Origin: Oceanipulchritudo coccoides
Lineage (GTDB): Bacteria > Verrucomicrobiota > Verrucomicrobiia > Opitutales > Oceanipulchritudinaceae
Assembly: GCF_010500615.1 (NCBI RefSeq)
Contig: NZ_JAAGNX010000001.1
Coordinates: 1,379,531-1,443,530, forward strand
Direction: 5' to 3'
DNA: 64,000 bases
The position numbers and the translations under genes were made by a program. Below are positions 4,666 through 46,508 of the stretch, in pieces. The notes below the pieces were generated by a model, which saw nothing but the letters and a program-made list of their open reading frames with translations, did not search any database and was not told the DNA's origin. Each line of letters opens with the position of its first letter. Positions within the stretch are counted from its first letter, which is position 1.

Positions 4666-4727
4666 CGACTCTTAGTTCTTTGACTCATCGACCCGGTTTC
4701 GATGGTCAATTTCGGACTTTCTCTTTT

Positions 4728-5104: not shown

Positions 5105-5208
5105 CAAGCCAAGTGAGCGCGGCGAGCCCGGACGAAGCCTGCGGCACGGGCATCAAACTGTGATTAGGATATTGATTTCTTCCCGAGAGGTCATTTGATG
5201 ACCCGCTT

Positions 5209-6201: not shown

Positions 6202-6212
6202 TCTAAACTCAT

Positions 6213-8018: not shown

Positions 8019-8040
8019 CCCCAACCCAGAAAACCAGATA

Positions 8041-13589: not shown

Positions 13590-13694
13590 ACGACTATCCT
13601 GCACGGCCTTTTCTAGATTGGCAAGAGTGAGAATGACTCTGCCCAATTCAAATTCCTGTTGTCGAACCAGCCAATTCCGGCTAGCGTCCTTTTC

Positions 13695-27419: not shown

Positions 27420-27454
27420 GCTCTGGTTCTGGCCTGTAGTACAACTTAAACATC

Positions 27455-28501: not shown

Positions 28502-28516
28502 TTTTTTTTACCAATT

Positions 28517-28532
28517 CATTAAAGGATTAATG
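28517..28532. promoter_or_regulatory. Palindrome overlapping the GH43 ribosome-binding site, candidate operator 3
   Basis: CATTAA-AGGA-TTAATG, with perfect 6-base arms, is six bases before the ATG of the GH43 gene and contains its AAAGGA Shine-Dalgarno-like sequence. The core ATTAA-N4-TTAAT matches the two palindromes upstream of the first gene of the locus. It may be an internal operator, or a purine-rich ribosome-binding site that is palindromic by chance. Confidence 0.4.
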
Positions 28533-28537
28533 TAGAT

Positions 28538-30151
28538 ATGATAGGGGCACAGAAAGGCACTGAAACAGGGACAATTCAAAATCCCATCCTGCGGGGATTT
28601 AATCCGGACCCATCGATTCTCAGGGTAGGAAAAGACTACTACATCGCGACTTCAACTTTCGAATGGTTTCCGGGAGTACAGATCCATCACTCCCGTGATC
28701 TGGCCAACTGGAGGCTGATAACCCGTCCTCTCACGCGCAGAAGCCAACTGGACATGTTGGGCAATCCTGATTCGGGCGGGGTTTGGGCTCCTTGTTTGAG
28801 CCATTGCGATGGAAAATTCCATTTGATTTATTCGAATGTGAGGAGATGGAAAGAAGATCCCTATAAGGTGGTCGACAATTTCCTGGTCACGGCACCGGCT
28901 ATTGATGGGCCCTGGTCAGAACCAATCTACCTGAATTCCACCGGGTTTGACCCCTCACTTTTTCATGATGAGGACGGCCGCAAGTGGTTGGTAAGCATGG
29001 AGTGGGATCACCGGAAGGGTCGGGATCGTTTCAGTGGCATTCTTTTGCAGGAATTTTCGCCCGCTGAGAAGAAGCTGATTGGCCCTGTCCAAAAAATCTT
29101 CAAGGGCACGGAAATTGGCCTCGTGGAAGGTCCGCATTTGTATCGACTCAATGGTTACTATTACCTTTTGACAGCTGAAGGAGGAACGCAGTACCAACAT
29201 GCTGTGAGCCTTTGTCGTTCGCGACAGATTGAAGGCCCCTACGAAATTCACCCGGAAAACCCATTATTGACTTCCTACGGAAAGCCGGAACTGAACCTCC
29301 AGAAAGCGGGGCACGGATCCCTTGTCGAAACTCCGGAAGGCGAGTGGTACCTGGCTCATTTGTGTGGTCGTCCAGTCGACGGGCGACATTGCATCCTGGG
29401 CCGGGAGACAGCCCTGCAAAAGTGCAACTGGAAGGATGATGGCTGGATTTATCTTGAGAGCGGCGGATCTTCTCCACAAGTGGAAGTGACGGGGCCTTTG
29501 AATCTGGATCATTCAGATGGGACTGAAGATGTTTGGGATGGCGAATTTTCTCCCAGCGCGCTTGATATCCATTTTCAATCCCTTCGCCAGCCTATCACCG
29601 AGGACTGGTGCAGCCTTACGGAGCGTCCCGGGTGGCTAAGGCTGAAGGGGTTTGAACCGACCACGAGCCAGTTTCGCCAAAGTCTGATCGCCCGGCGGGT
29701 ACAGGCCTTTACTATTGAGGCCTCCACCGAAGTTGACTTCAAGCCGGAAGGATTCAACCAAATGGCAGGGCTTATCGCCTATTATGATACAGAGAACCAC
29801 TATTACCTTCGATTAAGCCATGACGAAAAAGTCGGCCGCTCATTAAACATCATTCAGACTGTTGCCGGACCAAGTGGTGAAATTCTTTCCGAAGATGTGC
29901 CGGTTCCATCGGACGGATCTGTCCACCTAAGGGTTCGAATCGAGCAAACTGAACTCCAATTTTATTTTTCCCTCGACGGGGAAAGCTGGACACCCATTGG
30001 ACCGGTCCTTGAGAGCACAATCTTATCCGATGACTTTAATCACTTGGGCTTTACAGGAGCGTTTGTGGGTATGTGTGCCCAAGACTTTGTACGGTCAGGC
30101 AATCCAGCCGATTTCAAGTATTTCAAGTACCAAGAACTTTCACTGCCGTAA
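28538..30151 (+). CDS. Cytoplasmic GH43 beta-xylosidase / arabinofuranosidase
   Basis: Predicted to release xylose (or arabinose) from the ends of imported xylo-oligosaccharides. The 537-residue product has no signal peptide, so it acts in the cytoplasm. The five-blade propeller catalytic domain (about residues 15-320) opens NPILRGFNPDPSILRVGKDY. The three expected catalytic carboxylates are Asp24 (NPDPS), Asp138 (STGFDPSLF) and the general acid Glu197 (LVEGPHLY). A C-terminal beta-sandwich (about 340-530) as in GH43 subfamily 11 xylosidases includes NHYYLRLSHDEK. Length is typical of that group. It follows the LacI-type regulator by 36 bases and precedes the TonB-dependent receptor by 33 bases, consistent with uptake followed by intracellular hydrolysis. 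Confidence 0.93.
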   Translation: MIGAQKGTETGTIQNPILRGFNPDPSILRVGKDYYIATSTFEWFPGVQIHHSRDLANWRLITRPLTRRSQLDMLGNPDSGGVWAPCLSHCDGKFHLIYSNVRRWKEDPYKVVDNFLVTAPAIDGPWSEPIYLNSTGFDPSLFHDEDGRKWLVSMEWDHRKGRDRFSGILLQEFSPAEKKLIGPVQKIFKGTEIGLVEGPHLYRLNGYYYLLTAEGGTQYQHAVSLCRSRQIEGPYEIHPENPLLTSYGKPELNLQKAGHGSLVETPEGEWYLAHLCGRPVDGRHCILGRETALQKCNWKDDGWIYLESGGSSPQVEVTGPLNLDHSDGTEDVWDGEFSPSALDIHFQSLRQPITEDWCSLTERPGWLRLKGFEPTTSQFRQSLIARRVQAFTIEASTEVDFKPEGFNQMAGLIAYYDTENHYYLRLSHDEKVGRSLNIIQTVAGPSGEILSEDVPVPSDGSVHLRVRIEQTELQFYFSLDGESWTPIGPVLESTILSDDFNHLGFTGAFVGMCAQDFVRSGNPADFKYFKYQELSLP

Positions 30152-30184
30152 TTACCCAATTACCAAACTCCAATACTAAAACAT

Positions 30185-33151
30185 ATGAAAACCAAATACC
30201 TCATAACAGGATTGTTCGCTTCCTCTGCGTTTGTTCTTTTCGGTCAGGACGAAAAAGCAGAAGCCGATGATGTTTTTAATTTATCTCCATTCGTCGTCGA
30301 TGCCTCAAAGGATACCGGTTACCTCGCTTCACAAACGCTGGCTGGCACACGCCTTGCCACCGACCTGAAGGATGCCCCGTCACCCGTCACTGTCCTTACG
30401 ATGGAATTCCTGGAGGATATTGATGCCACCGATATAAACGACGCCTTGTCCTTTGTTCCTGCCGTGGATGATGATCCGCGGCCTTACAACTCCCTGAACA
30501 ACAATCCGGTTTCATCACGGATCAGGGGGTTCCAGCAGACAAATACAAACGTGAACTTTTTCCCCACGCGGACCACGACGGACCGCTATAATATTGATCG
30601 CATTGAGATTAATCGCGGCCCCAACGCGATTCTCTTCGGAATCGGCAATCCTGGCGGCACCTATGTCGCGACAACGAAAAACGCTGAGTTGAGGAAGAAT
30701 TTTGGGTGGGTGGAAAACCGGGTGGATACCCTCGACAGCTGGCGCTTTGCCGGGGATTGGAATCAGGTTGTCATCGAAGACCGTCTGGCAATCCGTATTG
30801 CCGGAATGACAGAAGACAGAAAGGGCTTTATCGAACCCATGTCCGACCGGGACAAGCGGTTCTACATCGCCCTTAACGCCAAGATAGCTGATACCAAAAA
30901 TTATGACCTGAGCGTTCGCTATCAGTTTGAAGATGTTTCTCAGGTCACGACTACACGGGCATGGAATTTGCCATGGGACAACATCACAGCCTGGCAGGAT
31001 GCGGGTTCGCCAACATATGATTCCCCAGACCAGGTTCCTGCCGCATTAAGATGGCCTGCCGGGATGACCCGAATTCCCAATGCTTTCACGATAGCGCCCG
31101 TAATTAGCGGCTCTGAAGTGAATGTTCCCACTTTCACATATGGTAACAGGCCCGCCAGCATGCAATCTCGCTCCGACAACAATCAGCGCTATCGAATCGG
31201 CACTCCCTTAAGCAGAGCAACCATCCCCGGCACGGATATACCTATTCCGACTGATTTATCCTATCAAGGTGCCGCTTGGGGATATACGCTGGACTCTGAT
31301 TCCCATGCTGTCTTTGTCGAGCAGACCTTCTTCGATAAACTCTTCACGGAAATTGCCTGGTATCAACAAAGTGTCGACCGTGACTGGAACCGAAGCAACG
31401 GTGGGCAAGACCTGTATGTCGATGTCTTGGAGTTTCTACCCAATGGGGACTCCAATCCAAATGTCGGCAAGGTCTTTACACAGGGAACCCCGCGGGTCCA
31501 GCAACAGTATCGTGAGATTGAAGTCGGAAGACTGACTGTCGGATATGAATTGGATCTTCGCGATACGGCTGACTGGTTGGGTCGCCATCGCTTTGGTGTT
31601 CTTTTGGAAAGTTCGCGTGACCTTCTGGGGCTCAATGACCTTCTTGAAGTCAATCTTCTGACTGACCGTCCTGGGGCATTTCAAAGTGATTTGACCAATT
31701 TCGGCAATCGCACCGTCCGCAGGAGTTATCTTTTCACCGGGTATGGCAATGTCTGGCAGGGGATGGCGAATCCAGGCAGGGATGCCTATTCCTCAATCAG
31801 CGGTCTTGTTGATCCTTCCAGCGTGCAGAGTGAAGCGGGGGATCGGTTTGCAACTGAACTCGCCAATTTCCGGGTGAGCCGTGGGGAGACGGAAACCGAC
31901 TCATGGGTCTTCTCCATGCAGAGCTTCTTCCCAGCGCCTGGATTTGGTAACATCAGGGAACGCCTTGTCCCATTCTGGGGTCTTCGGAAAGACGACCAAG
32001 TATCGACCCAGTTGATACAATCAGAAATGAATGCCTCTAAAGTCCGTGGTGTTTTTCCGGACTGGAGGACACTACCATATGAGAGAGCATCAACATTCGA
32101 TGACACAACTTTGACATGGGGTGTCGTTTATCGGATCACACCTTTCATTGATTTATTCTACAATGAATCAGAGGTCCTGTCTCCAGGAAGCAGCCGACAG
32201 GATGTATTTGGTGAAACGATATCCTCGTCAACGGGCGAGGGTTGGGATGCCGGCGTTCGCTTTGAACTCCTTGATGGCAAATTAGTTGGAAGCTTTTCAG
32301 TCTTTGAATCCACCCAATTGAATATTCCCTTGTTCAATATTATTGGTGGGAATGTTGGAGCCCAGTTTCCTGATCCCACAAACAACCTTCTGGACGCACT
32401 CATTGAAGTCCAGGAAGGGACCGATCAACCCGCTGGATTTCCTGACTTGAATTACGGAGCCGCACAGGTGGAAATAGCTGACCCGATCGATACCTTTGAT
32501 AACGAGGCGGAAGGAATGGATTGGGAAATCACATATAATCCCAAGCCAAACTGGCGTATTTCCTTCCGGGGACAAAAAATGGAGAACAAGGAATCGAACG
32601 TTCTGAACAGAAGCTTCCGGCATTTCCAGGAATTTCTTCTCCCGATTGAGGCTGCCTTCATTTCAACTGGTTTGGATGATTGGGACATTCCTGACTACGA
32701 CCGGACAATTTCGGAGTTCTTCGCTGATACAAGGCAGGAAATTGCCAATGACAAGTTCTCAAGGGAAGGAACGCTGGCAATCCGTTCGAGCAAATGGCGC
32801 TACACACTGGTGACCAATTACAGTTTCCGAAAAGGGCCATTGAAGGGGATTTCCATTGGTGGAAATTTGCGTTACTCAAGCAAGAAGGCCATCCAGGCTA
32901 TCATTGACCCCCAGACCGGCTTTACCGGAGCTTACGTTTATGATGACCCCAACTATATCCTTGGAATGAATCTCGGATATTGGAAAAAGTTTTCCAATGG
33001 AGTCATCATGAATATCCGCCTGAACATTAGCAATGTCCTCGATAACGATGATTTCTCAGTGCAGTCGGCCAATTCGATAACAGGAGAAATCTATGCTCTA
33101 CGACCCGTTGAAGGCCGTGAAGCTTCCCTGACCACCTCCTTCAGGTTTTAA
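30185..33151 (+). CDS. TonB-dependent outer-membrane receptor
   Basis: Predicted to import glycan fragments across the outer membrane using TonB energy. The 988-residue product has a signal peptide ending near LFGQ. A short N-terminal segment DDVFNLSPFVVDASKD follows, likely containing the TonB box and typical of Opitutales receptors. The plug domain has AGTRLATDLKDAPSPVTVLT, SSRIRGFQQTNTNV and IDRIEINRGPNAILFGIGNP, and then comes the long beta-barrel. The last residues TTSFRF end in an aromatic, as needed for barrel assembly. No SusD partner is adjacent, as is usual outside Bacteroidota. It lies between the GH43 gene and a sulfatase in the same direction, so xylo-oligosaccharides, perhaps sulfated, are the inferred cargo. 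Confidence 0.94.
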   Translation: MKTKYLITGLFASSAFVLFGQDEKAEADDVFNLSPFVVDASKDTGYLASQTLAGTRLATDLKDAPSPVTVLTMEFLEDIDATDINDALSFVPAVDDDPRPYNSLNNNPVSSRIRGFQQTNTNVNFFPTRTTTDRYNIDRIEINRGPNAILFGIGNPGGTYVATTKNAELRKNFGWVENRVDTLDSWRFAGDWNQVVIEDRLAIRIAGMTEDRKGFIEPMSDRDKRFYIALNAKIADTKNYDLSVRYQFEDVSQVTTTRAWNLPWDNITAWQDAGSPTYDSPDQVPAALRWPAGMTRIPNAFTIAPVISGSEVNVPTFTYGNRPASMQSRSDNNQRYRIGTPLSRATIPGTDIPIPTDLSYQGAAWGYTLDSDSHAVFVEQTFFDKLFTEIAWYQQSVDRDWNRSNGGQDLYVDVLEFLPNGDSNPNVGKVFTQGTPRVQQQYREIEVGRLTVGYELDLRDTADWLGRHRFGVLLESSRDLLGLNDLLEVNLLTDRPGAFQSDLTNFGNRTVRRSYLFTGYGNVWQGMANPGRDAYSSISGLVDPSSVQSEAGDRFATELANFRVSRGETETDSWVFSMQSFFPAPGFGNIRERLVPFWGLRKDDQVSTQLIQSEMNASKVRGVFPDWRTLPYERASTFDDTTLTWGVVYRITPFIDLFYNESEVLSPGSSRQDVFGETISSSTGEGWDAGVRFELLDGKLVGSFSVFESTQLNIPLFNIIGGNVGAQFPDPTNNLLDALIEVQEGTDQPAGFPDLNYGAAQVEIADPIDTFDNEAEGMDWEITYNPKPNWRISFRGQKMENKESNVLNRSFRHFQEFLLPIEAAFISTGLDDWDIPDYDRTISEFFADTRQEIANDKFSREGTLAIRSSKWRYTLVTNYSFRKGPLKGISIGGNLRYSSKKAIQAIIDPQTGFTGAYVYDDPNYILGMNLGYWKKFSNGVIMNIRLNISNVLDNDDFSVQSANSITGEIYALRPVEGREASLTTSFRF

Positions 33152-33239
33152 TCGGACAATCAAACATGAAGCTAAACTCCCGGATTCCATTACATTCGAT
33201 GGGTCCGGCCGGTTATGAACCTGTCCGCGACTGTTTCGT

Positions 33240-34862
33240 ATGAAAATCAGCACGTCAGCATTGGTCTTTGTTTTCATTCTATTCCTGTCCACACAAGTGG
33301 CGGCGGGGAAGAAGGGAGGGGATGTTCCAAATGTCATTTTTATCATCTGCGATGACCTGAATGATTCCGTTGAGGGATTTGGCGGGCACCCACAGGCAAT
33401 CACGCCAAACATGGACCGTTTGGCTAGAAAAGGGGTGAAGTTCGTTAACGCCCAGTGTAATGTTCCGATCTGCGGGCCTTCAAGGGCCAGTCTCTGGAGT
33501 GGTCTTTATCCACACACGACAGGAAATTTTGGCTACAAGCAGCAACAGAACCCATGGCGGAAAAACCCCGTCATGAAGGAGACTGTCACGCTGTTTGAGC
33601 ACCTCACTAACGAGGGATACAAAGTCTTCGCGAGTGGTAAAATTCATCACAACGGCCACGAGGACTGGGATATTTTCAAGGACCTTGATGGGAATACCGG
33701 CTTTAAGGTTGAGCCCAGCATGGGGCCCTATCCAGCGGGTGATAAACATGAGTATCCCGGCCGGGGGAACACCCATCCCGACATGCCTTCGGGAATGAAA
33801 GGGGTGGGGTGGGACTCTGGTTTCGGAGCCATCCGGGATATATCCGCTGAATACGGTGGTACCGGTTACTGGAAATATAAATTCAGTTGGGAAGACGAGT
33901 ACCGGTACGAAGGTCCGGATGACCGGGATTTAATGCCCGATGAACGCTGTGCGGATTATGCCATCGAGCTCTTGCAGCAAAAGCACGACAAACCGTTCAT
34001 GCTGGCAATCGGATTTAACCGGCCGCATTCCCCGAGGCATGTTCCAGAAAACTACTTTGATCTGTACCCATTGGATGAGCTTCAATTGACCCCGATGCTT
34101 AAGGATGATTTGGAGGATTGTGCCCCGACATTCAGCACGAAGAAGGATATTGGAACGGAGGGCTACGGTTTTGAAAAATTCAGCCATGTCATTAACAATG
34201 GGGGTCTGGAAAACCTGAAAGCATGGACACAGGCATACCTGGCCTGCGTCACTTTTGTTGATGACCAATTGGGTCGCGTGCTCGACGCATTGGACGAGAG
34301 TGCGTATGCGGATAACACCATCGTCATATTCACAAGCGACCACGGATACCACATGGGAGAGAAATCGCATTTGTTCAAAAACTCTGTTTGGGAAGAGAGT
34401 ACCCGTGTTCCGATGGTAATTGCTGGTCCCGATATTGCTGTTGATGCCGTTTGCACAGCGCCGGTATCTTTGATAGACCTTTATCCGACACTGGTTGATT
34501 ATGGGCAGTTGGATCAGGAACCGAACGCAAGGAAGAATGGAAAGTCTCTCGATGGATTCACCATGAGGGGGTTGCTGGAAAATCCCTCTGCAAATAAATG
34601 GGAGGGTCCACCGATAGCCATAACCGCATTGTCCTCAAATAAGCCACTTGAGATCAACGAACCGGGGGCGCCGGAGGACCAGCACTATTCGATCCGCAGC
34701 GAGCGCTATCGCTATGTCCTGACAAGGAACGGTGAAGAGGAACTGTACGATCATCTGACTGACCCCAACGAATGGTACAACCTCGCTAGCCGCCCGCAAT
34801 ACGCGCCAGTGGTTCAAACCCTTCGCAAGGAATTTTTTCAAGTAATCAATACCACCCGCTAA
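33240..34862 (+). CDS. Secreted S1-family sulfatase (iduronate-2-sulfatase-like)
   Basis: Hydrolyses sulfate esters on a sugar, inferred to be part of a sulfated xylan-type glycan. The 540-residue product has a signal peptide (LVFVFILFLSTQVAAG). Metal-ligand Asp residues lie in IFIICDDLNDSVEGFGGHP, and the formylglycine site CGPSRASLWSG has Cys78. The distal metal site is in FTSDHGYHMGEKSHL, followed by WEESTRVPM. Cys78 needs conversion to formylglycine, but no maturase gene is seen in the window. It precedes the sugar symporter by 12 bases and is clearly part of the same operon. Which sugar position it desulfates cannot be told from sequence. Confidence 0.93.
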   Translation: MKISTSALVFVFILFLSTQVAAGKKGGDVPNVIFIICDDLNDSVEGFGGHPQAITPNMDRLARKGVKFVNAQCNVPICGPSRASLWSGLYPHTTGNFGYKQQQNPWRKNPVMKETVTLFEHLTNEGYKVFASGKIHHNGHEDWDIFKDLDGNTGFKVEPSMGPYPAGDKHEYPGRGNTHPDMPSGMKGVGWDSGFGAIRDISAEYGGTGYWKYKFSWEDEYRYEGPDDRDLMPDERCADYAIELLQQKHDKPFMLAIGFNRPHSPRHVPENYFDLYPLDELQLTPMLKDDLEDCAPTFSTKKDIGTEGYGFEKFSHVINNGGLENLKAWTQAYLACVTFVDDQLGRVLDALDESAYADNTIVIFTSDHGYHMGEKSHLFKNSVWEESTRVPMVIAGPDIAVDAVCTAPVSLIDLYPTLVDYGQLDQEPNARKNGKSLDGFTMRGLLENPSANKWEGPPIAITALSSNKPLEINEPGAPEDQHYSIRSERYRYVLTRNGEEELYDHLTDPNEWYNLASRPQYAPVVQTLRKEFFQVINTTR

Positions 34863-34874
34863 CCAGAAACTTAC

Positions 34875-36233
34875 ATGAGCACTTCACTACCTCCACTTTC
34901 AAAATCCCGCATCTTTGGATACTCACTCGGGGACTTGGGGATCAACCTCAATTTCCAGATGATCGGTTTCTATCTGGCTTATTTCTACACCGATGTCTTT
35001 GGAATCTCTCCCGGGCATGTAGCGGGGCTTTTCCTGGTGGCGCGAATATGGGATGCGGTTAATGACCCGATCATGGGGTATATCGCTGACCATACCAAAT
35101 CCCGGTGGGGACGGTTTCGCCCGTACCTGCTTTTCATGGCCATTCCGTTGAATCTAATGTTGGTCGCCTGTTTCTTTACGCCAGAGATTTCCGTGGAGGC
35201 AAAAGTGGTCTATGCTTATGTTACTTATCTCCTTCATGGAATGGTCTTCACGGCGCTTGGGCTGCCATACTCCTCGATCGCCGCGGTAATGACACAAGAC
35301 CAGCAGGAGCGGTCCGTCATTGCCTCCTTTCGGATGTTTTTTGCGGTGATCATCGGCATGAGTATCATCGCGGTCGGGGTCCGCCCCATGGTTGCCGCTT
35401 TTTCAAGCGAACAAACCGGCTTCTCTTTGGTGTCCATTATCTTTGCCATTGCCTCGACCCTCCTGATTTGGCTCGCATTCCGATTCTCCCAAGAGCGGGT
35501 TGAAGTGCCAAAAGAACGCTATCACCTCAAGGACATCATCACCATTATCCGGAAGAACGACGCCTTGCTCATTTTAGGCCTGGCCATGATCCTGAACACC
35601 GGTGTCTGGGTCATTGGAAATGCAGTAGCTCTGTACTTTTTCAAATACATACTAGGTGATGCCGGCCTTCAGCCGATCTTTTTCTTCGTCATGATTCCCT
35701 TCAACCTGCTGGGAGTTATCCTTGCCCCGATGCTCACCAAATGGATCGGGAAACGACAGGCGTTTATTTTGGGAAGCTTCGTCGTAGCCGTCTTCGCCCT
35801 TGGTCGTTACTTTGTTCCGGATTCAATGATTTGGTTGCTGTTTGTCGTATCGGCATTGGGGACTGTCGGGCAAATGGCCTGTTCGGTCACCCAGTGGGGG
35901 ATGGTCCCGGACACGGTGGAGTATGGTCACTGGAAAACGGGTTTCCGCTCCGAGGGAATACCCATCGCCTTCTTCTCTTTTTCGCAAAAAGTTGGTATGG
36001 CTTTGGCAGGTGCTTTCGCGGCCTATGTTCTTTCCCTGACCGGATACGTTGCCAATACCGAACTAACGGCGCAGGCGGCGGAAGGCATCCGTTGGCTATT
36101 CAATATATTTCCTGGACTGTGTTCAGTTTTGTGCCTCTTGAGCTTGCTTTTTTATAAGCTGACTGGTGAGCGATACGAACAAATCCTGATCGATCTCCAG
36201 AACAACCGGTTCCATCCAAGTGTCGGAAAGTGA
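34875..36233 (+). CDS. GPH-family sugar:cation symporter
   Basis: Inner-membrane transporter (MelB/XynP type) of 452 residues with about 12 membrane helices. The family signature is seen in VARIWDAVNDPIMGYIADH followed by TKSRWGRFRPYLLF, and a second in WGMVPDTVEYGHWKTGFRSEG. XynP-like members carry xylosides, which fits the neighbouring xylosidase and xylanases. It starts 12 bases after the preceding sulfatase and is followed 41 bases later by the sulfatase-xylanase-sulfatase gene. It is inferred to bring xylo-oligosaccharides from the periplasm to the cytoplasm for the GH43 enzyme. Confidence 0.92.
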   Translation: MSTSLPPLSKSRIFGYSLGDLGINLNFQMIGFYLAYFYTDVFGISPGHVAGLFLVARIWDAVNDPIMGYIADHTKSRWGRFRPYLLFMAIPLNLMLVACFFTPEISVEAKVVYAYVTYLLHGMVFTALGLPYSSIAAVMTQDQQERSVIASFRMFFAVIIGMSIIAVGVRPMVAAFSSEQTGFSLVSIIFAIASTLLIWLAFRFSQERVEVPKERYHLKDIITIIRKNDALLILGLAMILNTGVWVIGNAVALYFFKYILGDAGLQPIFFFVMIPFNLLGVILAPMLTKWIGKRQAFILGSFVVAVFALGRYFVPDSMIWLLFVVSALGTVGQMACSVTQWGMVPDTVEYGHWKTGFRSEGIPIAFFSFSQKVGMALAGAFAAYVLSLTGYVANTELTAQAAEGIRWLFNIFPGLCSVLCLLSLLFYKLTGERYEQILIDLQNNRFHPSVGK

Positions 36234-36274
36234 ACAACCGGACCGAATTTGAATCTATATAACTAGCAGGATTT

Positions 36275-39200
36275 ATGAAACTACTTCCCCTGACCTTATT
36301 ATTAATCTCCTCTTTCGCCGCCATTTCCGGTTTTGCGGGGGAACGACCAAACATTCTGTTCATTGCAGTTGATGACTTACGCTTGCAATCGACTGTCTAT
36401 GGACAGAACCAGATGAAGACGCCCGGACTGAGCCGCCTTGCGGATGAATCGGTCGTATTCTCGCGCGCGTATTGCAGCGTCCCCGTCTGTGGGGCATCAA
36501 GAGCCAGCTTGATGACAGGCGTTCGCCCGACTGCAGATCGGTTTTTCAATTACTATACGCGCAAGGATAGGGATTTACCCGAAGTACCGAGCGTCGCCAA
36601 ATGGTTCAAGGACCATGGGTACACGACAATCTCCAATGGGAAAATCTATCACCATACGGATGACGACCTTGTCGCATGGTCTGAGCGTCCATGGGGCCCG
36701 CCGAGCAAAGGGATTGGATGGCAGGGCTACCTCACGGAAGAATCCAAGACAATGATCCTTGCCAACCAAACTGCTGAAAACCCGAACCAGATCATTGGTC
36801 CCGCCACGGAGAATGCGGATGTCGATGACAACATGTACCCAGACGGAATGTTGGCCGACAAGGCAATCGAGGATCTAAAGCGTTTTGCAAAATCTGGTGA
36901 GCCGTTTTTTCTTGGAGTAGGATTCTGGAAACCACATCTGCCCTTCAATGCACCGAAGAAGTATTGGGATTTATACAATCCCGAGGATATTGAACTCGCC
37001 GATAATCCCTACCAACCCAAGGACTCACCTGATGCGGCAATGCATCGCTTTGGTGAGCTTCGTGACATGTATGGCGATATCCCGCAGGACGGTCCGATTT
37101 CTGATGAGTTGGCCCGCCGACTTATTCACGGATACTTTGCAGCTGTTTCATACTCTGATGCCCAAATCAACAAGCTGCTTGATACGCTTGAAGAGACCGG
37201 CCTGGCGGAAAACACGATTGTTGTCCTCTGGGGAGATCACGGCTATCATCTGGGTGAACACGGTCTCTGGTGCAAACATGCCAATTTTGACCGCACGATG
37301 AACGCTCCGCTGATTGTCAAGGCGCCGGGTATCAAAGGCGGCGTTAAAACTTCCGCCATTACCGAGTTTATTGATATCTATCCGACCTTGTGCGAATTGG
37401 CGGATCTGCCCATTCCGGGACATCTGGATGGAAAGAGCTTTGTTTCCGAACTCAGGGAACCGGACAACCAATTCAAGGAGTATGCTTACAGCCGGTACCA
37501 TTGGGGTGAATCCATTATTAGTGATCAACACATCTATACTGAGTGGATCAACCAATCCGGTGAACTTTATGGACGAATGTTGTACGACCATGAAAACGAT
37601 CCTGCCGAAAACTTGAATGTTTCTGAATCGCCGGAATATGCCGGTGTAGTGGAGGCAATGAAGAGCCAATTGGAGGATGTACGCCAGTCCATCGCAAAAA
37701 AGGATTTCAACGTATCGGGTTCCATTAAGAAAACCTATGCGGATTACTTCCCAGTCGGAACAGCGATCAGTTATCGCGAAGTAATGGAAGCTGATCCTGA
37801 GAGACTTTCATTGATCAAAAATAACTTTTCCATCCTGACAGCGGAAAATTGCTTCAAATGGGACGCCATCCATCCGGAAGAGGACCGGTATGATTTTGTT
37901 CAGGCTGATAAAGTGGCTGAATTTGCGCGCGCAAACGGGTACAAGCTCTGGGGACACGTCCTCGTCTGGCATCACCAGACTCCCGAATGGATATTCAAGG
38001 ATGGCGACTCCACAGCCTCCCGGGAATTGGTACTGAAGCGAATGCGGGAGCATATCCACACCGTGATGAATCGCTACAAGGATGTAATTTATGGTTGGGA
38101 TGTCGTGAACGAGGCTATTTCTGATGAGGAGGATGTTTTCCTTTATCCATCAAAGTGGCTGGAGATTGTTGGAGAAGACTTCATTGAGAAGGCCTTTCTG
38201 TACGCAATGGAAGCAGGAACAGGCGCCTTGCTGAGCTACAACGATTATTCATTGCCTGATCCACCAAAGCGGAAAAAACTTGTCCGCTTGATTTCGGGTC
38301 TTCTGGAAAAGGGTATTCAGGTAGATACAGTCGGCTTCCAGTCGCATTACAACCTGTACTATCCAGAGCTTGAAGAATTGGCGAAGAGCATTAAGGCCGT
38401 CAGTAATATGGGCTTGAAGGTATCGGTCTCCGAAATCGACATGAGTGTATTCGACATGGGGGACAAGTCCGACCGCTATTCCGGGGGATTGCCAGGAGAG
38501 CTCGAAATCTACCAGGGGATTAAATATGCCAACTTAATGAGTCTCTACCAGGAATATGCGGGTGATTTAGAACGCGTGACTTTTTGGGGGATTTACGATG
38601 CCGACAATTGGAGAAATTACTGGCCAGTCGATCGCAGGACTGACTACGCAGGCTTAATAAACAGGGAAGGGCGGGCCAAATCAGCTTACTCAGCGGTCAT
38701 CAACCCTTCGGCCTACTTGGAGGAGCATTCCGCCATTGAGGAACCTGTATCACCCCACTTGCTGGAAGAGCAAGCGTCAACGAATGTCATCCGCCCGGAT
38801 CTATTCTTTTATCTGGCTGATGATCAGAATTACTGGGATTACGGTTTCGCGGGTAATGACAAAGTCAGTACACCGAATGTGGACAAGCTGGTTAACGAGA
38901 GCCTTCTGTTTACGCGGGCATACACCAGCATGGCCATCTGTTCACCGAGTCGAAACAGCCTGTATACCGGACTCTACCCACTCAGGAACGGTTGCTACAT
39001 GAATCACATTCGCTCGCGGAATGACATCCGCAGCGTTGCCCAGTATCTCAAGGACCTTGGATACACGGTGATTCTGGCTGGGAAAAGCCATGTCAATCCG
39101 AATTCAGTATTTGACTGGTCGCATCATTGGCCGACTGTCCCCGTCAGGGGAGAAAAGGGTGGACGATTACCATTGGAAAAGGTTGAGGAGTTTCTTCGAA

Positions 39201-40132
39201 CAAAGGAAGGTCCAGCCTGTGTTTTCTTCGCCTCTGAGTTTCCCCATGGCCCATATCCGGACATGCCAGCCCTTGATGAGTCAGAATTCAGTCCGAAGCC
39301 ATATCAATCCAACAACTTCAGAGCCCGTAAACGGACTGCCGGTTACTATGAAAACATCCGGAAAGATGACCAGCAGCTTGGCCAGCTTGTGGAAATGCTC
39401 AAGGGAACGGGCAATTGGGAGAACGATGTTTTCTTTTACGCCTCTGATCATGGAATAGATGGAAAGTACACAACTTTTGACCGTGGCCTTCGCGTTCCCT
39501 TGATAATGAGATGGAAAGGCCAGGCATCACCAGGGGGCGAGATCGACGCCCTCGTTCATTTCGTGGATATTGTTCCCACAATGGTAGAGATTGCAGGCGG
39601 GGAGGCAAATGAGAGCCTCGACGGAACAAGTATTTTGCCCTTGGTGAAAGGGGATGCGGATGCAATCCATGAAGCGGTCTACGGACTTCAGACCTACCAG
39701 AATATTCAGGATACACGGGTTTTTCCGGGCCGCAGTATTACAACTGGCAGATATAAGTTATCCATTAATTTCAACGCCGTTGAGGCCCTTGAGAAAAACT
39801 ATGGTGACAATACCGTCGTCAATGAATTTCTCCAACTGGGTGCGCAAAAGGACCACTGGCGGCGGTTTATTGAGCTGTACGATCTTTCAGCCGATCCCTT
39901 CGAGCAAGACAACCTCGGTAAAAAGCCTGAATTCAAGGAACTCAGGCAACAGTTGATGGTTCAGTTATTGCAATGGATGGGGGAGCAGGGCGATTTCATC
40001 GAACTTGGCAAGCCCCTTCCCTTGCTGAAACCCACCCTTCACCCATTGGACAAGACAACCCGGTTCAAGAATGTCCCGGGTCATCTTGAAGGAAGGTTGA
40101 AACCATCCGACTACATGCAGGACCATTATTGA
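36275..40132 (+). CDS. Trimodular secreted enzyme: S1 sulfatase-GH10 xylanase-S1 sulfatase
   Basis: One 1285-residue chain with three catalytic domains and a signal peptide (LTLLLISSFAAISGFAG). Domain 1 (about 25-480) is an S1 sulfatase with FIAVDDLRLQ, formylglycine motif CGASR (Cys72), GDHGYHLGEHGLW and KPHLPFNAPKKYWDLY. It closely resembles the sulfatase at 40181. Domain 2 (about 486-810) is a canonical GH10 endo-beta-1,4-xylanase with acid/base Glu613 in WDVVNEA and nucleophile Glu720 in VSEIDMSV, 107 residues apart as usual for GH10. Domain 3 (about 838-1285) is a second S1 sulfatase with FYLADDQNYWDYG and CSPSR (Cys889), from a different subgroup. All three sets of catalytic residues are present, and linkers are short. 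The frame is uninterrupted over 3.9 kb. It probably desulfates and cuts the same chain from two sides; the substrate is inferred. Confidence 0.93.
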   Translation: MKLLPLTLLLISSFAAISGFAGERPNILFIAVDDLRLQSTVYGQNQMKTPGLSRLADESVVFSRAYCSVPVCGASRASLMTGVRPTADRFFNYYTRKDRDLPEVPSVAKWFKDHGYTTISNGKIYHHTDDDLVAWSERPWGPPSKGIGWQGYLTEESKTMILANQTAENPNQIIGPATENADVDDNMYPDGMLADKAIEDLKRFAKSGEPFFLGVGFWKPHLPFNAPKKYWDLYNPEDIELADNPYQPKDSPDAAMHRFGELRDMYGDIPQDGPISDELARRLIHGYFAAVSYSDAQINKLLDTLEETGLAENTIVVLWGDHGYHLGEHGLWCKHANFDRTMNAPLIVKAPGIKGGVKTSAITEFIDIYPTLCELADLPIPGHLDGKSFVSELREPDNQFKEYAYSRYHWGESIISDQHIYTEWINQSGELYGRMLYDHENDPAENLNVSESPEYAGVVEAMKSQLEDVRQSIAKKDFNVSGSIKKTYADYFPVGTAISYREVMEADPERLSLIKNNFSILTAENCFKWDAIHPEEDRYDFVQADKVAEFARANGYKLWGHVLVWHHQTPEWIFKDGDSTASRELVLKRMREHIHTVMNRYKDVIYGWDVVNEAISDEEDVFLYPSKWLEIVGEDFIEKAFLYAMEAGTGALLSYNDYSLPDPPKRKKLVRLISGLLEKGIQVDTVGFQSHYNLYYPELEELAKSIKAVSNMGLKVSVSEIDMSVFDMGDKSDRYSGGLPGELEIYQGIKYANLMSLYQEYAGDLERVTFWGIYDADNWRNYWPVDRRTDYAGLINREGRAKSAYSAVINPSAYLEEHSAIEEPVSPHLLEEQASTNVIRPDLFFYLADDQNYWDYGFAGNDKVSTPNVDKLVNESLLFTRAYTSMAICSPSRNSLYTGLYPLRNGCYMNHIRSRNDIRSVAQYLKDLGYTVILAGKSHVNPNSVFDWSHHWPTVPVRGEKGGRLPLEKVEEFLRTKEGPACVFFASEFPHGPYPDMPALDESEFSPKPYQSNNFRARKRTAGYYENIRKDDQQLGQLVEMLKGTGNWENDVFFYASDHGIDGKYTTFDRGLRVPLIMRWKGQASPGGEIDALVHFVDIVPTMVEIAGGEANESLDGTSILPLVKGDADAIHEAVYGLQTYQNIQDTRVFPGRSITTGRYKLSINFNAVEALEKNYGDNTVVNEFLQLGAQKDHWRRFIELYDLSADPFEQDNLGKKPEFKELRQQLMVQLLQWMGEQGDFIELGKPLPLLKPTLHPLDKTTRFKNVPGHLEGRLKPSDYMQDHY

Positions 40133-40180
40133 TCCAGCAGTTTCACATTTTCCGACTTTAATATCTCAAAAAACCAAGCC

Positions 40181-41899
40181 ATGCACTTATCTAAAATTTC
40201 ATTCCCATTTTTTGCTGGAGCACTGATGCTGTTGCATGTCGGACTCTGCGCTGAAACATCTGAACATCCAAATATTCTGTTCATCGCAGTCGATGATCTC
40301 CGTCCTGAACTTGGAGCTTACGGAGTTGAGGAAGTCATCAGCCCGAACATTGACCGTCTGGCCAGCCAGGGAACCTTGTTTTCCCAAGCCTACTGTCAAG
40401 TGCCAGTCTGTGGAGCCTCCAGAGCCAGCCTGATGACAGGCCTTTATCCGACCCCGGATCGTTTTGTCACTTACCATTCAAGGGCTGACGAGGATGCTCC
40501 TGGCATTGTCGACCTTCCGGGTTGGCTCAAGAAGTATGGATACCAGACAATATCCCACGGGAAGATTTATCATAACCGGGATGATAACAAACCCTCATGG
40601 GACGAAATTGACCGTACGAAGAATTTCAGGGTATACCTGCTCCCCGAAAACGCCAACCTGCCCAATGGAAAGCAGCCGGCATACGAGTCAGCGGATGTCC
40701 CGGATAATGCGTATCCCACAGGACAAATGACGGTCAGGATTATCGATGACCTCCGACAGGCCAAAAAGGACGGAACTCCTTTTTTTATCGCGGCAGGATA
40801 CACAAAGCCACATTTGCCCTTCAATGCACCCAAGAAGTATTGGGATCTCTATGATCACGAAAGCATTGAACTGGCTGATAATCCCTTCGCTCCAAAGGGA
40901 GCTCCACGGCAGGCAATCCATCAATGGCAGGAGCTGCGGAACGGGTATGGGGGAATTCCGAAGTCCGGTCCCTTGCCAGATGAATTGGCCCGGACCTTAA
41001 TCCATGGCTATCGGGCAGCCGTCTCTTATACTGATGCGATGATTGGCCAGGTTCTGGCTGAACTGGACCGGCTCGAAATGAGAGAAAATACTATTGTGAT
41101 TCTGTGGGGAGACCACGGTTGGCAATTGGGTGAGCATTCCCTCTGGTGCAAGCACGCCTTGTTTGATACCTCCCTGAATGCTCCGCTCATTATCAGCGCG
41201 CCCGGAATGAAAGAAGAACAGCGGACAAGCTCCCTTGTCGAATTTGTGGATATCTTCCCGACCCTTTGTGAACTTGCCGGACTGAAAATGCCGGGACACC
41301 TCCAAGGGACGAGCCTAGTGCCGCTCCTGAAAAATGATGAGCTTGTGCTGAAGAGAGCCGCTTTTTCCAGGTACCACGGTGGGGAGGCTGTCCGCACAGA
41401 AAGATTTCTTTACGCGGAATGGAGCGGAGGGGCCAGAATGCTGTATGACCAATCAATTGATCCGGACCAAAACATCAACGTGGCCGAGAATTCCGAATAC
41501 AAGGAGGTAGTGGCCAAGTTGTCCGCAGTGCTCAAGGCTCACCGTACAGAGGTTAAAAACTCAGACCCACTTCTGGAAATCAGTGCGAAGGAGAAGGGCT
41601 CCGTCAATCAAGCACCAAAATGGAAGCGGGGCACTTTCAAGCTAAAGGATGCAACCGTTGGTGAGGATTATGTCTCCTATGTGAATTGGGCGGCTACCGA
41701 TAAGGAAGAGGATGCCTTGGAGTATGCCTTGCTCTCCGGACCAGACTGGCTGTCGATGACAAACTCAAAATACGGCAAAGTGGAAGGGACTCCTTCGGCA
41801 GAAGATTTGGGCACAAATGAGTTTGTTGTCAGTGTCTCTGATGGTCAAAATTCGCCTGTGACGGCAAATCTCAAAATTGCCGTCATTCCAGCGAACTAA
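40181..41899 (+). CDS. Secreted S1 sulfatase with C-terminal Ig-like domain
   Basis: Sulfate-ester hydrolase of 572 residues. The signal peptide ends near HVGLCA. The sulfatase domain (about 28-455) has FIAVDDLRPELGAYG, formylglycine motif CGASRASLMTG with Cys77, KPHLPFNAPKKYWDLYDHE and WGDHGWQLGEHSLW. It is strikingly similar to the first domain of the upstream trimodular protein, indicating duplication and domain transfer within the locus. The last 95 residues (about 476-570, APKWKRGTFKLKDATVGED to LKIAVIPAN) look like a cadherin/He_PIG-type Ig fold, possibly for adhesion. It is the last gene of the main plus-strand run. The next gene is a regulator on the opposite strand, converging with a 30-base gap. 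Confidence 0.92.
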   Translation: MHLSKISFPFFAGALMLLHVGLCAETSEHPNILFIAVDDLRPELGAYGVEEVISPNIDRLASQGTLFSQAYCQVPVCGASRASLMTGLYPTPDRFVTYHSRADEDAPGIVDLPGWLKKYGYQTISHGKIYHNRDDNKPSWDEIDRTKNFRVYLLPENANLPNGKQPAYESADVPDNAYPTGQMTVRIIDDLRQAKKDGTPFFIAAGYTKPHLPFNAPKKYWDLYDHESIELADNPFAPKGAPRQAIHQWQELRNGYGGIPKSGPLPDELARTLIHGYRAAVSYTDAMIGQVLAELDRLEMRENTIVILWGDHGWQLGEHSLWCKHALFDTSLNAPLIISAPGMKEEQRTSSLVEFVDIFPTLCELAGLKMPGHLQGTSLVPLLKNDELVLKRAAFSRYHGGEAVRTERFLYAEWSGGARMLYDQSIDPDQNINVAENSEYKEVVAKLSAVLKAHRTEVKNSDPLLEISAKEKGSVNQAPKWKRGTFKLKDATVGEDYVSYVNWAATDKEEDALEYALLSGPDWLSMTNSKYGKVEGTPSAEDLGTNEFVVSVSDGQNSPVTANLKIAVIPAN

Positions 41900-41929: not shown

Positions 41930-43084
41930 TCATATCAAGTATTCTGCTCTCTTAAGCTGACGGTACTTTCCTGGAGTTGTCCCGTAGGCTGCCTTGAAAT
42001 TATTTATCAGGGAATTCACCGAGTAGTAACCACAGTTTTCGGCTATTTCATCCAAGCTGGCATTGGTAGTGCCTAGTAAATGTGCAACAGCTTGAATCCG
42101 CTGCTGGCGAATTTCCTCGCCGGGTGAACGTGTATAACTTTTCGCAAAAGCTTTCTGTAATCCTTGCTGGCTAACGCCAACAGCATTTGCCACATCAATG
42201 GCTTGTATCCCCATGTAAAAGTTTTTATGAATCCAGTGCAGGGCCTTTGCTACAACCGCATTGTTAACCGCGTAACAATCGGTACTACCACGAGTGACAA
42301 CACCTTTGGGAGGGTGCCGATGGACCAGGATGTCTTTCGGGCAATTCTCCCCTCTGAAAACAGATTGAAGAAGTTCCCCTGCTGCCATCCCAAGGCCTTC
42401 CTGGTCGCTGTCGATACTGCTGAGGCCAATTGTCAGACCGCTGTTGATCAGGTCGTCGTTATCAACACCCAGAACGGCAATATTCTCAGGAACTTTCAGC
42501 TCCTGCTGCAAGCACAGGGAAATCATCTCGGATGCCATGGTATCTTCGTAAGCAAAAAGCCCCACGGACGTTTCCTTTAGTCGCTTTCCCTCCCGTTCCA
42601 CAACTTGACTTAATTTTTCAATGATATCGGGCTTAACTGTCCTTGAGGATCCCAGCATGGTGACTTTTCCTCCTTCACTCTCCATGAACTCCCTTAAGCC
42701 TTCAAAGCGCTCCCTGAACATGGTTTTTCCTCCATGATCAAAGGTGAAAACTTCCCTGTAGCCGTGATCCCGGAAATGTTCTGCCGCTAATCGACCGATT
42801 TGTCGGTTATCGGTCACGACTCGCGGAACCGGTCGCTTGTAACTGTGTAATCCGAGATCGACCAAGGGGATATTGTTCTTCCAAAAATAATCCAGAGTAT
42901 CCCTGCATTCGAGGAGAGCAATGCACCCGTCACCCTGCCAGTCCTTCAAAAACCCTTCGTTGGCAACCATGTCCTTGGGGCAATTCAGCTGCCAGCCATA
43001 TTTCCGCGCGATCATGGCAACACCACGATGAATCCGGTAGTCATACCATTCCAACAGGAGCAGGATATGTTTGGTTTTCAGCAC
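41930..43084 (-). CDS. XylR-like transcriptional regulator (LacI-type sensor + AraC-type DNA-binding domain)
   Basis: The 384-residue product combines an N-terminal sugar-binding domain (HILLLLEWYDYRIHRGVAMI, then VVTDNRQIGRLAAEHFRDHG) with a C-terminal AraC helix-turn-helix pair (about residues 285-380). The latter includes AIDVANAVGVSQQGLQKAFAK and ENCGYYSVNSLINNFKAAYG. This domain order is that of xylose-responsive XylR. It is transcribed away from the PEP-CTERM gene, and a 15-base palindrome lies in the shared 190-base gap. It is inferred to sense xylose or a related pentose and activate parts of the locus, acting beside the LacI-type regulator. Confidence 0.92.
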   Translation of the reverse strand: MLKTKHILLLLEWYDYRIHRGVAMIARKYGWQLNCPKDMVANEGFLKDWQGDGCIALLECRDTLDYFWKNNIPLVDLGLHSYKRPVPRVVTDNRQIGRLAAEHFRDHGYREVFTFDHGGKTMFRERFEGLREFMESEGGKVTMLGSSRTVKPDIIEKLSQVVEREGKRLKETSVGLFAYEDTMASEMISLCLQQELKVPENIAVLGVDNDDLINSGLTIGLSSIDSDQEGLGMAAGELLQSVFRGENCPKDILVHRHPPKGVVTRGSTDCYAVNNAVVAKALHWIHKNFYMGIQAIDVANAVGVSQQGLQKAFAKSYTRSPGEEIRQQRIQAVAHLLGTTNASLDEIAENCGYYSVNSLINNFKAAYGTTPGKYRQLKRAEYLI

Positions 43085-44195: not shown

Positions 44196-44227
44196 AAAGC
44201 GCAACTTGAGAAGTTGCGCTTTATTTT
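44196..44227 (+). terminator. Rho-independent terminator after the PEP-CTERM gene
   Basis: Perfect 12-base stem AAAGCGCAACTT (44196-44207) and AAGTTGCGCTTT (44211-44222) with a GAG loop, followed by ATTTTT. It overlaps the earliest possible in-frame start of the next gene, which argues that the esterase starts further downstream. Confidence 0.92.
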
Positions 44228-44264
44228 TAGCGCAATACCATTCACTTTCCAAACTAGGTTCATT

Positions 44265-45113
44265 TTGAAAACAACTCGACACTATCTGTACATTTTATTC
44301 ATCTGCGCCTTTTTTCAGGCATTTTCGCTTGAGAGCAAGGGTTTCACTGCCGATCAAGTCATCGAATACAAGAAGGTTGGAGAAACGAGCCTTAACCTGC
44401 ATGTCTTTTATCCGCATGGGCACAGGAAGGGAGACAAGCGCCCGGCGATTGTATTCTTCTTTGGCGGTGGTTGGAATGGCGGTTCTCCCAGCCAGTTCTA
44501 CGCGCATTGCCAGCACTTGGCCTCCAAGGGCATGGTCGCCATGTCTGCCGAGTACCGCGTAAAGTCCCGAGACAAGACAACCCCGCGCGAGTGCGTGAAG
44601 GATGGTAAATCTGCTGTCAGATGGATCCGGCAACAGGCAAAGGAACTCGGAATTGATCCTGATCGAATCGCCGCAGGGGGTGGATCAGCAGGGGGTCAAG
44701 TCGCCGCCGCTGCCGCCATGGCAAGCGGATTTGAGGAAGAGGGCGAAGATTCAGCTATCAGCGCCCGCCCAGATGCCTTGATTCTTTTCAATCCCGTCTT
44801 CGATAATGGCCCCAATGGCTACGGCTATTATCGGGTTAAGGAATACTGGAAAGAGTTTTCGCCCATTCACAATATAAGCGAAGCCACGCCACCGACTATC
44901 GTTTTTCTCGGCACCGCGGATAAGCTGATCCCGGTAAAAACAGCAAAGAAATACAAGCGCCTGATGGAAGAGAAGGGGCGGCGTTGCGATTTGCACCTTT
45001 ATGAGGGCGAACCCCACGGCTTCTTCAATTATGGAAATCGAGACAACTACTTGAGAACCCTGACAGAGATGGATCGATTCCTTTCTTCTCTGGGATACCT
45101 GATTGAAGAATAA
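44265..45113 (+). CDS. Secreted alpha/beta-hydrolase esterase (acetyl-xylan/feruloyl esterase-like)
   Basis: Predicted to remove acyl groups from the glycan. The start is placed at the TTG at 44265, with a fair AGG ribosome-binding site and a clean signal peptide (YLYILFICAFFQAFS). The frame is open back to 44214, but that start lies inside a terminator stem. The 282-residue product has the oxyanion segment FFFGGGWNGGSPSQF and nucleophile Ser141 in GGGSAGGQ. Asp219 is in GTADKLIP and His251 in EPHGFFN, forming a complete triad. It resembles bifunctional carbohydrate esterases found with xylanases. The GH10 gene follows 12 bases later, so the two are co-transcribed. Confidence 0.87.
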   Translation: MKTTRHYLYILFICAFFQAFSLESKGFTADQVIEYKKVGETSLNLHVFYPHGHRKGDKRPAIVFFFGGGWNGGSPSQFYAHCQHLASKGMVAMSAEYRVKSRDKTTPRECVKDGKSAVRWIRQQAKELGIDPDRIAAGGGSAGGQVAAAAAMASGFEEEGEDSAISARPDALILFNPVFDNGPNGYGYYRVKEYWKEFSPIHNISEATPPTIVFLGTADKLIPVKTAKKYKRLMEEKGRRCDLHLYEGEPHGFFNYGNRDNYLRTLTEMDRFLSSLGYLIEE

Positions 45114-45125: not shown

Positions 45126-46508
45126 ATGAAAAGCCTCATTCAAATCCTAAGCCTGATAACTGGGCTCACAGTATCAGCTATGCCGATACATGAGGCATGG
45201 AATTTGAAGGAGGCAGAGCAGCGTATTGAGCAATATCGAAAAGGAACCTGTACACTCACCATCAGTCTCCCTGACGGATCATTCCTTCCTGAGGGTACTC
45301 CTGTCGGAATTGAGCAGACCCGGCATGCCTTCAACTTTGGAGGCTCACTGGCGCAAGTTCGATCCCTTCATGGCCAAGGGGTCCTTGAAGAGTACAAGGT
45401 GAACTTTGCCCGATTGTTCAACTATTCCACTATTGGCTTTTACTGGTCGCTGCATGAAAGGAGGCGAGGGGAGTGGAATCTTCAAGACTACACCCGTGAT
45501 GCAATTGACTGGGCCCAGAGCAAAGGAATGACACTGAGAGGGCATCCTCTGATGTGGCATAACGCTATTCCCAAATGGATCAGCGACACAAATCGCCCCG
45601 TTTCTGAAATTGATAAAGACATCAAGGAGCACGTCCGTCGCCTGGTTAGATTGTATCCTGAAATACACCAGTGGGACCTGTATAATGAGGCACCTGGAAT
45701 AAGACTTGTGGATCCGGACTGGGGTGCCCGAAGATGGGTTGAATCAACTGGCGGTGCAGGACCCATGACTGCACTTGTCGTGAAGGAAGTCCGCTCGGTG
45801 AAACCTGATGGTTATTTCATCCTGAATCACTTCAATGGGAATGATCCCGAGTATTGGGACCAAGTGGAATTCTGCCTCAGTAACGATGTTCCTTTTGATG
45901 CCATAGGCATTCAAACTCACATGCATTCGCGAGATTCCGTCCTCCAGGAGGAGGAGATGAATGAGATGTTAAAGCGTTTCTCCGTATTTGAAAAACCACT
46001 ACATTTAAGTGAGATCAGCGTCCTTAGCTGTGAACCCTTCGAATCATACAAGGAGATCAAGGCCTACAAGGAGTCCATCAATCAGGCAAGGCGACAAGGC
46101 AAGGACCTGCCGTTCATCAATAGTAGCCCCGAATGGGAAAAGTATCAGGCTGATTACACGCGGGATTTTTACACATTGGCCTTCAGCTATCCCAAGGTCG
46201 AGGCAATCATCTGGTGGTCTGTTTCGGACAGGGCTGCCTGGCGCGGGGCTCCCGCTGGCTTGCTGGATCGGGATTGTCGGCCCAAACCTGTTTACCGCGT
46301 ACTCGATAAGCTTATTAACCAGCAGTGGAAAACTCGTCTGAGAACCTCAACTGATGAGTCTGGTTCAATCGGGTTACGCGGTTTCTATGGCTCCTATAGA
46401 TTGACAGTCAGTCTCGGGAAGAAGAGTTACGTCGGCAGTTTTGAGATTTCCCGGGATTCCGACAATACAGTCAACATCCACTTGACGAAGCTTATCCCTG
46501 AATCGTGA
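45126..46508 (+). CDS. Secreted GH10 endo-1,4-beta-xylanase
   Basis: Cuts internal beta-1,4-xylosidic bonds. The 460-residue product has a signal peptide (SLIQILSLITGLTVSA). A short N-terminal beta domain (CTLTISLPDGSFLPEGTPVG) leads into the barrel (about 60-400). Acid/base Glu188 is in QWDLYNEAPG and nucleophile Glu296 in HLSEISVLS, 108 residues apart. Substrate-binding motifs are LRGHPLMWHN and WWSVSDRAAWRG. A C-terminal beta stretch of about 60 residues (SIGLRGFYGSYRLTVSLG) follows. It belongs to the same divergent GH10 subtype as the domain in the 1556-aa fusion, with the shared N-terminal FNFG motif. It is the last enzyme of the locus and is paired with the upstream esterase. Confidence 0.93.
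   Translation: MKSLIQILSLITGLTVSAMPIHEAWNLKEAEQRIEQYRKGTCTLTISLPDGSFLPEGTPVGIEQTRHAFNFGGSLAQVRSLHGQGVLEEYKVNFARLFNYSTIGFYWSLHERRRGEWNLQDYTRDAIDWAQSKGMTLRGHPLMWHNAIPKWISDTNRPVSEIDKDIKEHVRRLVRLYPEIHQWDLYNEAPGIRLVDPDWGARRWVESTGGAGPMTALVVKEVRSVKPDGYFILNHFNGNDPEYWDQVEFCLSNDVPFDAIGIQTHMHSRDSVLQEEEMNEMLKRFSVFEKPLHLSEISVLSCEPFESYKEIKAYKESINQARRQGKDLPFINSSPEWEKYQADYTRDFYTLAFSYPKVEAIIWWSVSDRAAWRGAPAGLLDRDCRPKPVYRVLDKLINQQWKTRLRTSTDESGSIGLRGFYGSYRLTVSLGKKSYVGSFEISRDSDNTVNIHLTKLIPES

Follow-up and report, generated by a model that had tools for sequence, protein, structure and literature searches.

A single open reading frame encoding an S1 sulfatase-GH10 xylanase-S1 sulfatase protein in Oceanipulchritudo coccoides, a candidate enzyme for sulfated xylan

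Gene content of the locus

All coordinates refer to the window, the whole 64,000-nucleotide stretch of Oceanipulchritudo coccoides DNA that was analysed. Eight genes run in the same direction at 22749-41899, in the order CBM-GH10-S1 fusion, LacI, GH43, TonB-receptor-like, S1, GPH symporter, S1-GH10-S1 (the focal gene) and S1 with an Ig domain. Between the first fusion and the last sulfatase, LacI included, neighbouring genes lie 12-88 bp apart. On the 3' side of this run come a XylR-like regulator on the opposite strand, an esterase and another GH10. The neighbours of the focal gene are as follows.

22749..27419, + strand: second fusion, two CBM4_9 domains, GH10 and S1, 1556 aa; Cys967, candidate Glu662/Glu778 (Pfam, motif reading)
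27455..28501, + strand: LacI-type regulator (Pfam)
28538..30151, + strand: GH43 beta-xylosidase-like protein with GH43_C2 (Pfam)
30185..33151, + strand: TonB-dependent receptor-like protein, Plug domain (Pfam)
33240..34862, + strand: S1 sulfatase (S1c), homologous to the S1 module that L100 carries joined to a GH10 (Pfam, tree)
34875..36233, + strand: GPH (glycoside-pentoside-hexuronide) symporter (Pfam)
40181..41899, + strand: S1 sulfatase with Ig domain, 52% identical to the first sulfatase domain of the focal protein (Pfam)
41930..43084, - strand: XylR-like AraC-family regulator with periplasmic-binding domain (Pfam)
44214..45113, + strand: BD-FAE type carbohydrate esterase (Pfam)
45126..46508, + strand: separate GH10 protein of another clade (Pfam, tree)

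The features that mark a sulfated-xylan utilisation locus, namely a GH10, a xylosidase-family glycoside hydrolase, several sulfatases and a sugar transporter, are present here in one locus. The genome also encodes a formylglycine-generating enzyme, FGE (PF03781 best match 276 bits, motif GGSYLCHDSYC), a xylose isomerase and a GH115. In further fusions of this genome, sulfatases are joined to esterase, GH-like and S1 modules.

Three modules in one open reading frame

The focal protein is made up of the following parts, in which S1a and S1b denote the first and the second sulfatase domain.

36275..40132 (stop included), + strand: S1-GH10-S1 trimodular protein ORF, 1285 aa (ORF reading, Pfam)
36275..36334, + strand: probable Sec signal peptide, residues 1-20, MKLLPLTLLLISSFAAISGF (read from sequence)
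36347..37687, + strand: S1a, residues 25-471, PF00884 and SGSH_C; closest solved relative 6HHM, S1_7 (Pfam, structure match)
36488..36490, + strand: Cys72, formylglycine site of S1a, CGASR (motif reading; invariant in 20/20 aligned)
37688..37720, + strand: linker 1, residues 472-482, about 11 residues by Pfam edges (Pfam edges, junction reading, AlphaFold model)
37721..38704, + strand: GH10 xylanase domain, residues 483-810; closest folds IXT6/XynB-type xylanases (Pfam, fold comparison)
38111..38113, + strand: Glu613, GH10 acid/base, WDVVNEA (motif reading, alignment)
38432..38434, + strand: Glu720, GH10 nucleophile, SEIDM (motif reading, alignment)
38705..38788, + strand: linker 2, residues 811-838, about 28 residues (Pfam edges, junction reading)
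38789..40129, + strand: S1b with C-terminal tail, residues 839-1285; sulfamidase/S1_8-like fold (Pfam, AlphaFold, fold comparison)
38939..38941, + strand: Cys889, formylglycine site of S1b, CSPSR (motif reading, alignment)

The frame opens with ATG and runs through 1285 codons with zero internal stops on the + strand, so the original prediction of one 1285-residue polypeptide holds, with neither a stop nor a frameshift between the domains, and the linkers are as short as it had claimed. Coding on the reverse strand of 36275-40132 was considered and rejected, as many stops interrupt that strand. The N-terminal signal peptide makes the chain probably a secreted one, and neither inner junction (S1a/GH10 or GH10/S1b) has a hydrophobic signal-like stretch. 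GC and third-position GC are even across the three modules.

Pfam assigns S1, GH10 and S1 to the three regions in the order that had been proposed. Sulfatase PF00884 matches in two stretches, the best at residues 25-377 with 268 bits, SGSH_C likewise matches in two, and GH10 PF00331 matches residues 483-810 with 278.8 bits against a cut-off of 22.1. These are three high-scoring whole domains, well past chance level. The four catalytic motif residues, Cys72, Glu613, Glu720 and Cys889, are intact at the positions first noted for them and conserved in relatives.

In S1a, residues C72, D33, D34, K123, H126, H221, D321, H322 and K334 are unchanged in all 20 aligned sequences. Its best solved match is 6HHM, the Formosa P18_S1_7 sulfatase (E 2.7e-89), to which the S1a model aligns with a TM-score of 0.90 over the target and 38% identity. 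The nearest solved structure is thus an enzyme of SulfAtlas S1_7, at just 38% identity, and S1_7 includes carrageenan and iduronate sulfatases too. The GH10 module is modelled as a TIM-barrel xylanase fold (TM 0.95-0.97 to IXT6 and other xylanases) and retains the catalytic as well as the -1/-2 subsite residues; E613, E720, N612, K528, H561, Q689, H691 and W771 are invariant across 18 aligned GH10s. S1b is a second S1 sulfatase, distant from S1a. Residues C889, D849, D850, K937, H939, H991 and K1064 are unchanged in 20 of 20 aligned sequences, and D1058/H1059 in 16 of the 20. Its nearest folds are sulfamidase first and then S1_8A, at 22-25% identity (24% to the nearest). The AlphaFold model of S1a-GH10 has a mean pLDDT of 91.3, and at its pTM of 0.72 the relative orientation of the domains is uncertain. 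A second model was interpreted for its S1b half only, where pLDDT is mostly 85-97; its GH10 half is poor and lacks alignment depth, because two alignments (A3 and A4) placed GH10 fragments on S1b columns and both were left unused.

Separate-gene counterparts in relatives

Both junctions of the focal protein have a separate-gene counterpart in relatives. For the first junction, one genome (G030) has an S1a orthologue (69% identical) followed by a GH10 gene, the two overlapping by four bases as TGA/ATG (ATGA); this pair adjoins GH43 and LacI genes, with a GPH symporter and a xylose-isomerase-like ORF close by. For the second, G548 has GPH, GH10, S1b-like and S1 genes overlapping or abutting, and here GH10 and the S1b-like gene share an ATGA overlap of four bases. 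G010 has S1, GH10 and S1c as three abutting or overlapping genes. Further afield, S1b (44%) adjoins S1a (63%) in a Bacteroidia MAG (L078), and a Flavobacteriaceae MAG has S1b (43%) close to genes for GH10 and GH43. Among the S1a relatives of the order, a GH10 lies within 5 kb in nine of the best 13 and in 12 of the 42 checked. On the stretches read around three S1a/S1b pairs (G351, G205 and G361) there is no GH10, which means that the pair does not belong to xylan exclusively. In trees the modules have different kin: S1a groups with G030 and L078, GH10 with G021/G130 of the same family, and S1b with G351, L078 and L079.

A full-length S1-GH10-S1 homologue was found in none of the 17 family, 373 order and 388 phylum genomes, and a GTDB exact-peptide scan, which diverged homologues may escape, returned split relatives only. 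Among the genomes searched, S1-GH10-S1 as one chain is confined to this draft genome. A 1503-residue open frame for the S1a relative of G563 was discarded as a candidate, since a stop separates its S1 gene from a GH10-S1 gene, and the long GH10 ORFs of the order in L052, L055, L064 and L069 gave no sulfatase match.

At least four architectures combine GH10 and S1 in one polypeptide: that of the focal protein, CBM-GH10-S1, S1-GH10 and GH10-S1. The S1-GH10 protein (876 aa) is intact at full length in 8 of 397 Flavobacteriaceae genomes, with a ninth copy carrying one stop, and keeps 53-78% identity over its whole length. The GH10-S1 protein, of 908 aa, is that of G563, where a GH30-like-S1 protein lies upstream. 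The fused state requires 3-4 changes on the GH10 tree and at least four on the S1 tree, with two fused GH10s on very long branches whose exact placement is unsure. These trees show several separate origins for the observed GH10-S1 fusions, spread over different orders and phyla.

Interpretation

We read the focal gene as encoding a secreted enzyme with three active sites, directed at sulfated xylan and formed by gene fusion, and we give this explanation as a whole a probability of about two thirds. The fusion would have joined, in frame, adjacent genes that overlap by four bases in relatives, with loss of the inner signal peptides. The substrate would be a beta-1,4-xylan that bears sulfate, or else a sulfated glycan rich in xylose and containing stretches of xylan. 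S1a (S1_7-type) would take sulfate off xylosyl units, probably at O-2, an assignment held with moderate confidence from its kinship to P18 and the GH10 neighbourhood. The GH10 module would cleave the xylan thus exposed, and here its family strongly predicts action on the desulfated chain. S1b (sulfamidase/S1_8-like) may remove sulfate of a second kind, such as that at chain ends or at a different position, the position being weakly indicated. GH43 and the remaining sulfatases of the locus would finish the products, which the GPH symporter would import.

Sulfated xylan is the likeliest substrate because S1a is nearest to P18_S1_7, a reported xylose-2-sulfatase, and S1b is nearest in fold to sulfamidase and S1_8. 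By analogy with the two xylose-2-sulfatases of the ulvan pathway, this suggests that both S1 modules may act on xylosyl sulfates, the similarity being distant for S1b. The original prediction had put forward a sulfated xylan whose desulfation and backbone cleavage are physically coupled. The gene cluster, the kinship of S1a to P18_S1_7 and the conserved S1/GH10 neighbourhoods give the inferred substrate good indirect support. Linkage in one chain may speed or order the steps, a putative coupling.

Might the three genes be separate in reality, and their union an error of assembly or sequencing in a draft genome? The occurrence of the arrangement in one genome only, among the 17, 373 and 388 genomes, would fit such an artefact, but the error would have had to erase, in frame, a stop, a start and a signal peptide at each of the two junctions while leaving no signal-like remnant at either, and the host contig is 1.46 Mb long in a genome that is 99.4% complete. 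We consider an artefact very improbable. A second alternative is that the fusion brings no gain, three enzymes of the same pathway having been joined by chance in an operon whose genes are tightly packed and overlap. In relatives the same genes overlap by 4 bp, so that it takes little to lose a single stop and a single signal peptide, the same genome contains other sulfatase fusions, and such fusions are common in Planctomycetes (PMC4807772). However, both the repeated fusion of GH10 with S1 in different orders and phyla and the full-length identity retained by the Flavobacteriaceae S1-GH10 protein point to selection, and we regard a neutral origin as possible but doubtful.

The choice of substrate has its own competitor, a different polysaccharide that contains xylose and sulfate, for instance ulvan (Rha3S-Xyl2S) or a xylo-rhamnan/galactan, with GH10 acting on side chains or on brief runs of xylose. 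The closest characterised relative of S1a acts on ulvan Xyl2S, the S1b/S1a pair of L078 lies near ORFs that by eye look like GH88/GH105 and GH3, and some S1a/S1b pairs lack a nearby GH10. Against this, Pfam detects two further GH10-containing proteins, GH43, the GPH symporter and the XylR-like regulator among the ORFs between 17.8 and 57.7 kb, and neither a polysaccharide lyase nor any GH78, GH88 or GH105, which speaks against an ulvan locus, and the S1a-GH10 neighbourhood is conserved across many genomes. We therefore find a substrate of the ulvan kind unlikely.

Within the sulfated-xylan reading, we tentatively propose a single-chain relay, in which two xylose sulfatases of different specificity, one S1_7-like and one S1_8-like, stand on either side of a xylanase whose cleavage is limited to chains freed of sulfate wholly or in part, and which would make sulfated beta-1,4-xylan digestible faster than the separate proteins of relatives do. 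If true, it would be the first enzyme built in this way and would give a direct readout of how sulfate is distributed on marine xylan. Sulfated xylans have been predicted from gene clusters of algal-bloom bacteria, and in the literature consulted the substrate was deduced and not isolated. A chain that carries two sulfatases and a xylanase links desulfation to the cleavage of xylan more closely than the proximity of genes can, and S1a, GH10 and S1b assayed singly could define which sulfates the xylan carries. The counterparts with four-base overlaps at both junctions offer a clear operon-to-fusion case together with natural unfused controls.

Comparison with known systems

The GH10 module resembles the intracellular-type xylanases IXT6, XynB and CbXyn10B in fold (TM 0.95-0.97) and in catalytic residues, whereas those enzymes are single-domain, unfused and without a link to sulfatases. 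The Planctomycetes P1 and P2 from Porphyra, which belong to a related phylum, have an estimated 34 and 21 multi-domain sulfatase genes (PMC4807772). Their sulfatases are fused to each other or to glycoside hydrolases, with one double-sulfatase fusion common to both, but the S1-GH10-S1 order is not among the fusions reported in the accessible text of that paper.

Formosa agariphila P18_S1_7 (PDB 6HHM) and P32_S1_8, both of the ulvan pathway, each cleave the 2-sulfate from xylose (PMC9096561). The former is the nearest solved relative of S1a, and the folds closest to S1b include those of S1_8 enzymes. Unlike the focal modules, they are separate single-domain proteins in an ulvan context, at 38% and about 23% identity. 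On whether S1_7 and S1_8 act in endo or exo mode, two reviews (PMC9096561 and PMC8360166) assign the two subfamilies in opposite ways. Formosa agariphila P36 (S1_25-GH78) is a characterised multimodular sulfatase-glycosidase for ulvan (PMC8511951). It too places a sulfatase and a glycoside hydrolase for the same oligosaccharide within one protein, but its single sulfatase is of subfamily S1_25 and its hydrolase is a rhamnosidase, not a xylanase.

A "sulfatase domain-containing GH10" is known from marine Bacteroidetes, where GH3 and sulfatase genes accompany it and the predicted substrate of the loci is sulfated xylan (Krüger et al., PMC6794258); a sulfated beta-xylan locus has also been reported by Kappelmann et al. 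(PMC6298971). In the Bacteroidetes protein (for example L134 948-3575, 876 aa) S1 is N-terminal to GH10 in one chain, and the predicted target is again sulfated xylan. It has two modules and no second sulfatase, whereas the focal protein has a third module; in L134, moreover, GH10 is far from the focal GH10 in the tree, S1 falls outside the S1a clade and the S1-GH10 gene is followed by a GH3-looking gene. Among open-licence papers we found no described S1-GH10-S1 enzyme with two sulfatases around a xylanase. The novelty is nevertheless narrower than the original prediction suggested, since the two-part proteins S1-GH10 (PMC6794258) and S1-GH78 (PMC8511951) are already on record. Sulfatase-glycoside hydrolase fusions were thus known before, and what looks new is the three-part S1-GH10-S1 order.

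Neighbouring genes and further sulfatase fusions

The locus of the focal S1-GH10-S1 protein, predicted to act on sulfated xylan, holds a second GH10-sulfatase fusion, CBM4_9 x2-GH10-S1 (window 22749-27419), in which the GH10 domain is divergent (78 bits) and retains candidate catalytic Glu residues. Immediately upstream of the locus, a small protein carries one CBM4_9 (17769-18311), and a protein of 1103 residues (18345-21656) contains six CBM4_9 modules and lacks any catalytic domain known to Pfam. Also in the locus, a protein with a PEP-CTERM-like C-terminus (VPEPATFALWAAFATLGLVMYRRRRL; 43278-44162) has no Pfam match.

Elsewhere in the same genome, an 1155-residue esterase (BD-FAE)-S1-S1 protein (contig C1, ~226-230 kb; stretch L090, 88-3552) is a further enzyme carrying two sulfatases on one chain. 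A 1295-residue protein (contig C3, ~364-368 kb; stretch L088, 10053-13937), whose C-terminal half is S1 and whose N-terminal half is weakly GH79/GH39-like, is encoded in a second island that is rich in sulfatases and also contains GH10 genes. Three other putative cases, read from stretches L091, L093 and L094, are a tandem S1-S1 protein of 1050 aa, an S1 with a big C-terminal half lacking domain assignment, and an ORF that reads as esterase-like-S1.

In G563, a genome from another family of the same phylum, two fusions lie near each other:

L100 (a stretch of G563), 4263-8075 and 11459-14185: GH30-like-S1 and GH10-S1 fusions

An S1-GH10 relative from Flavobacteriaceae at G745:C12:1545-4106 carries a single in-frame TAA, possibly a fusion in decay or else an assembly error.
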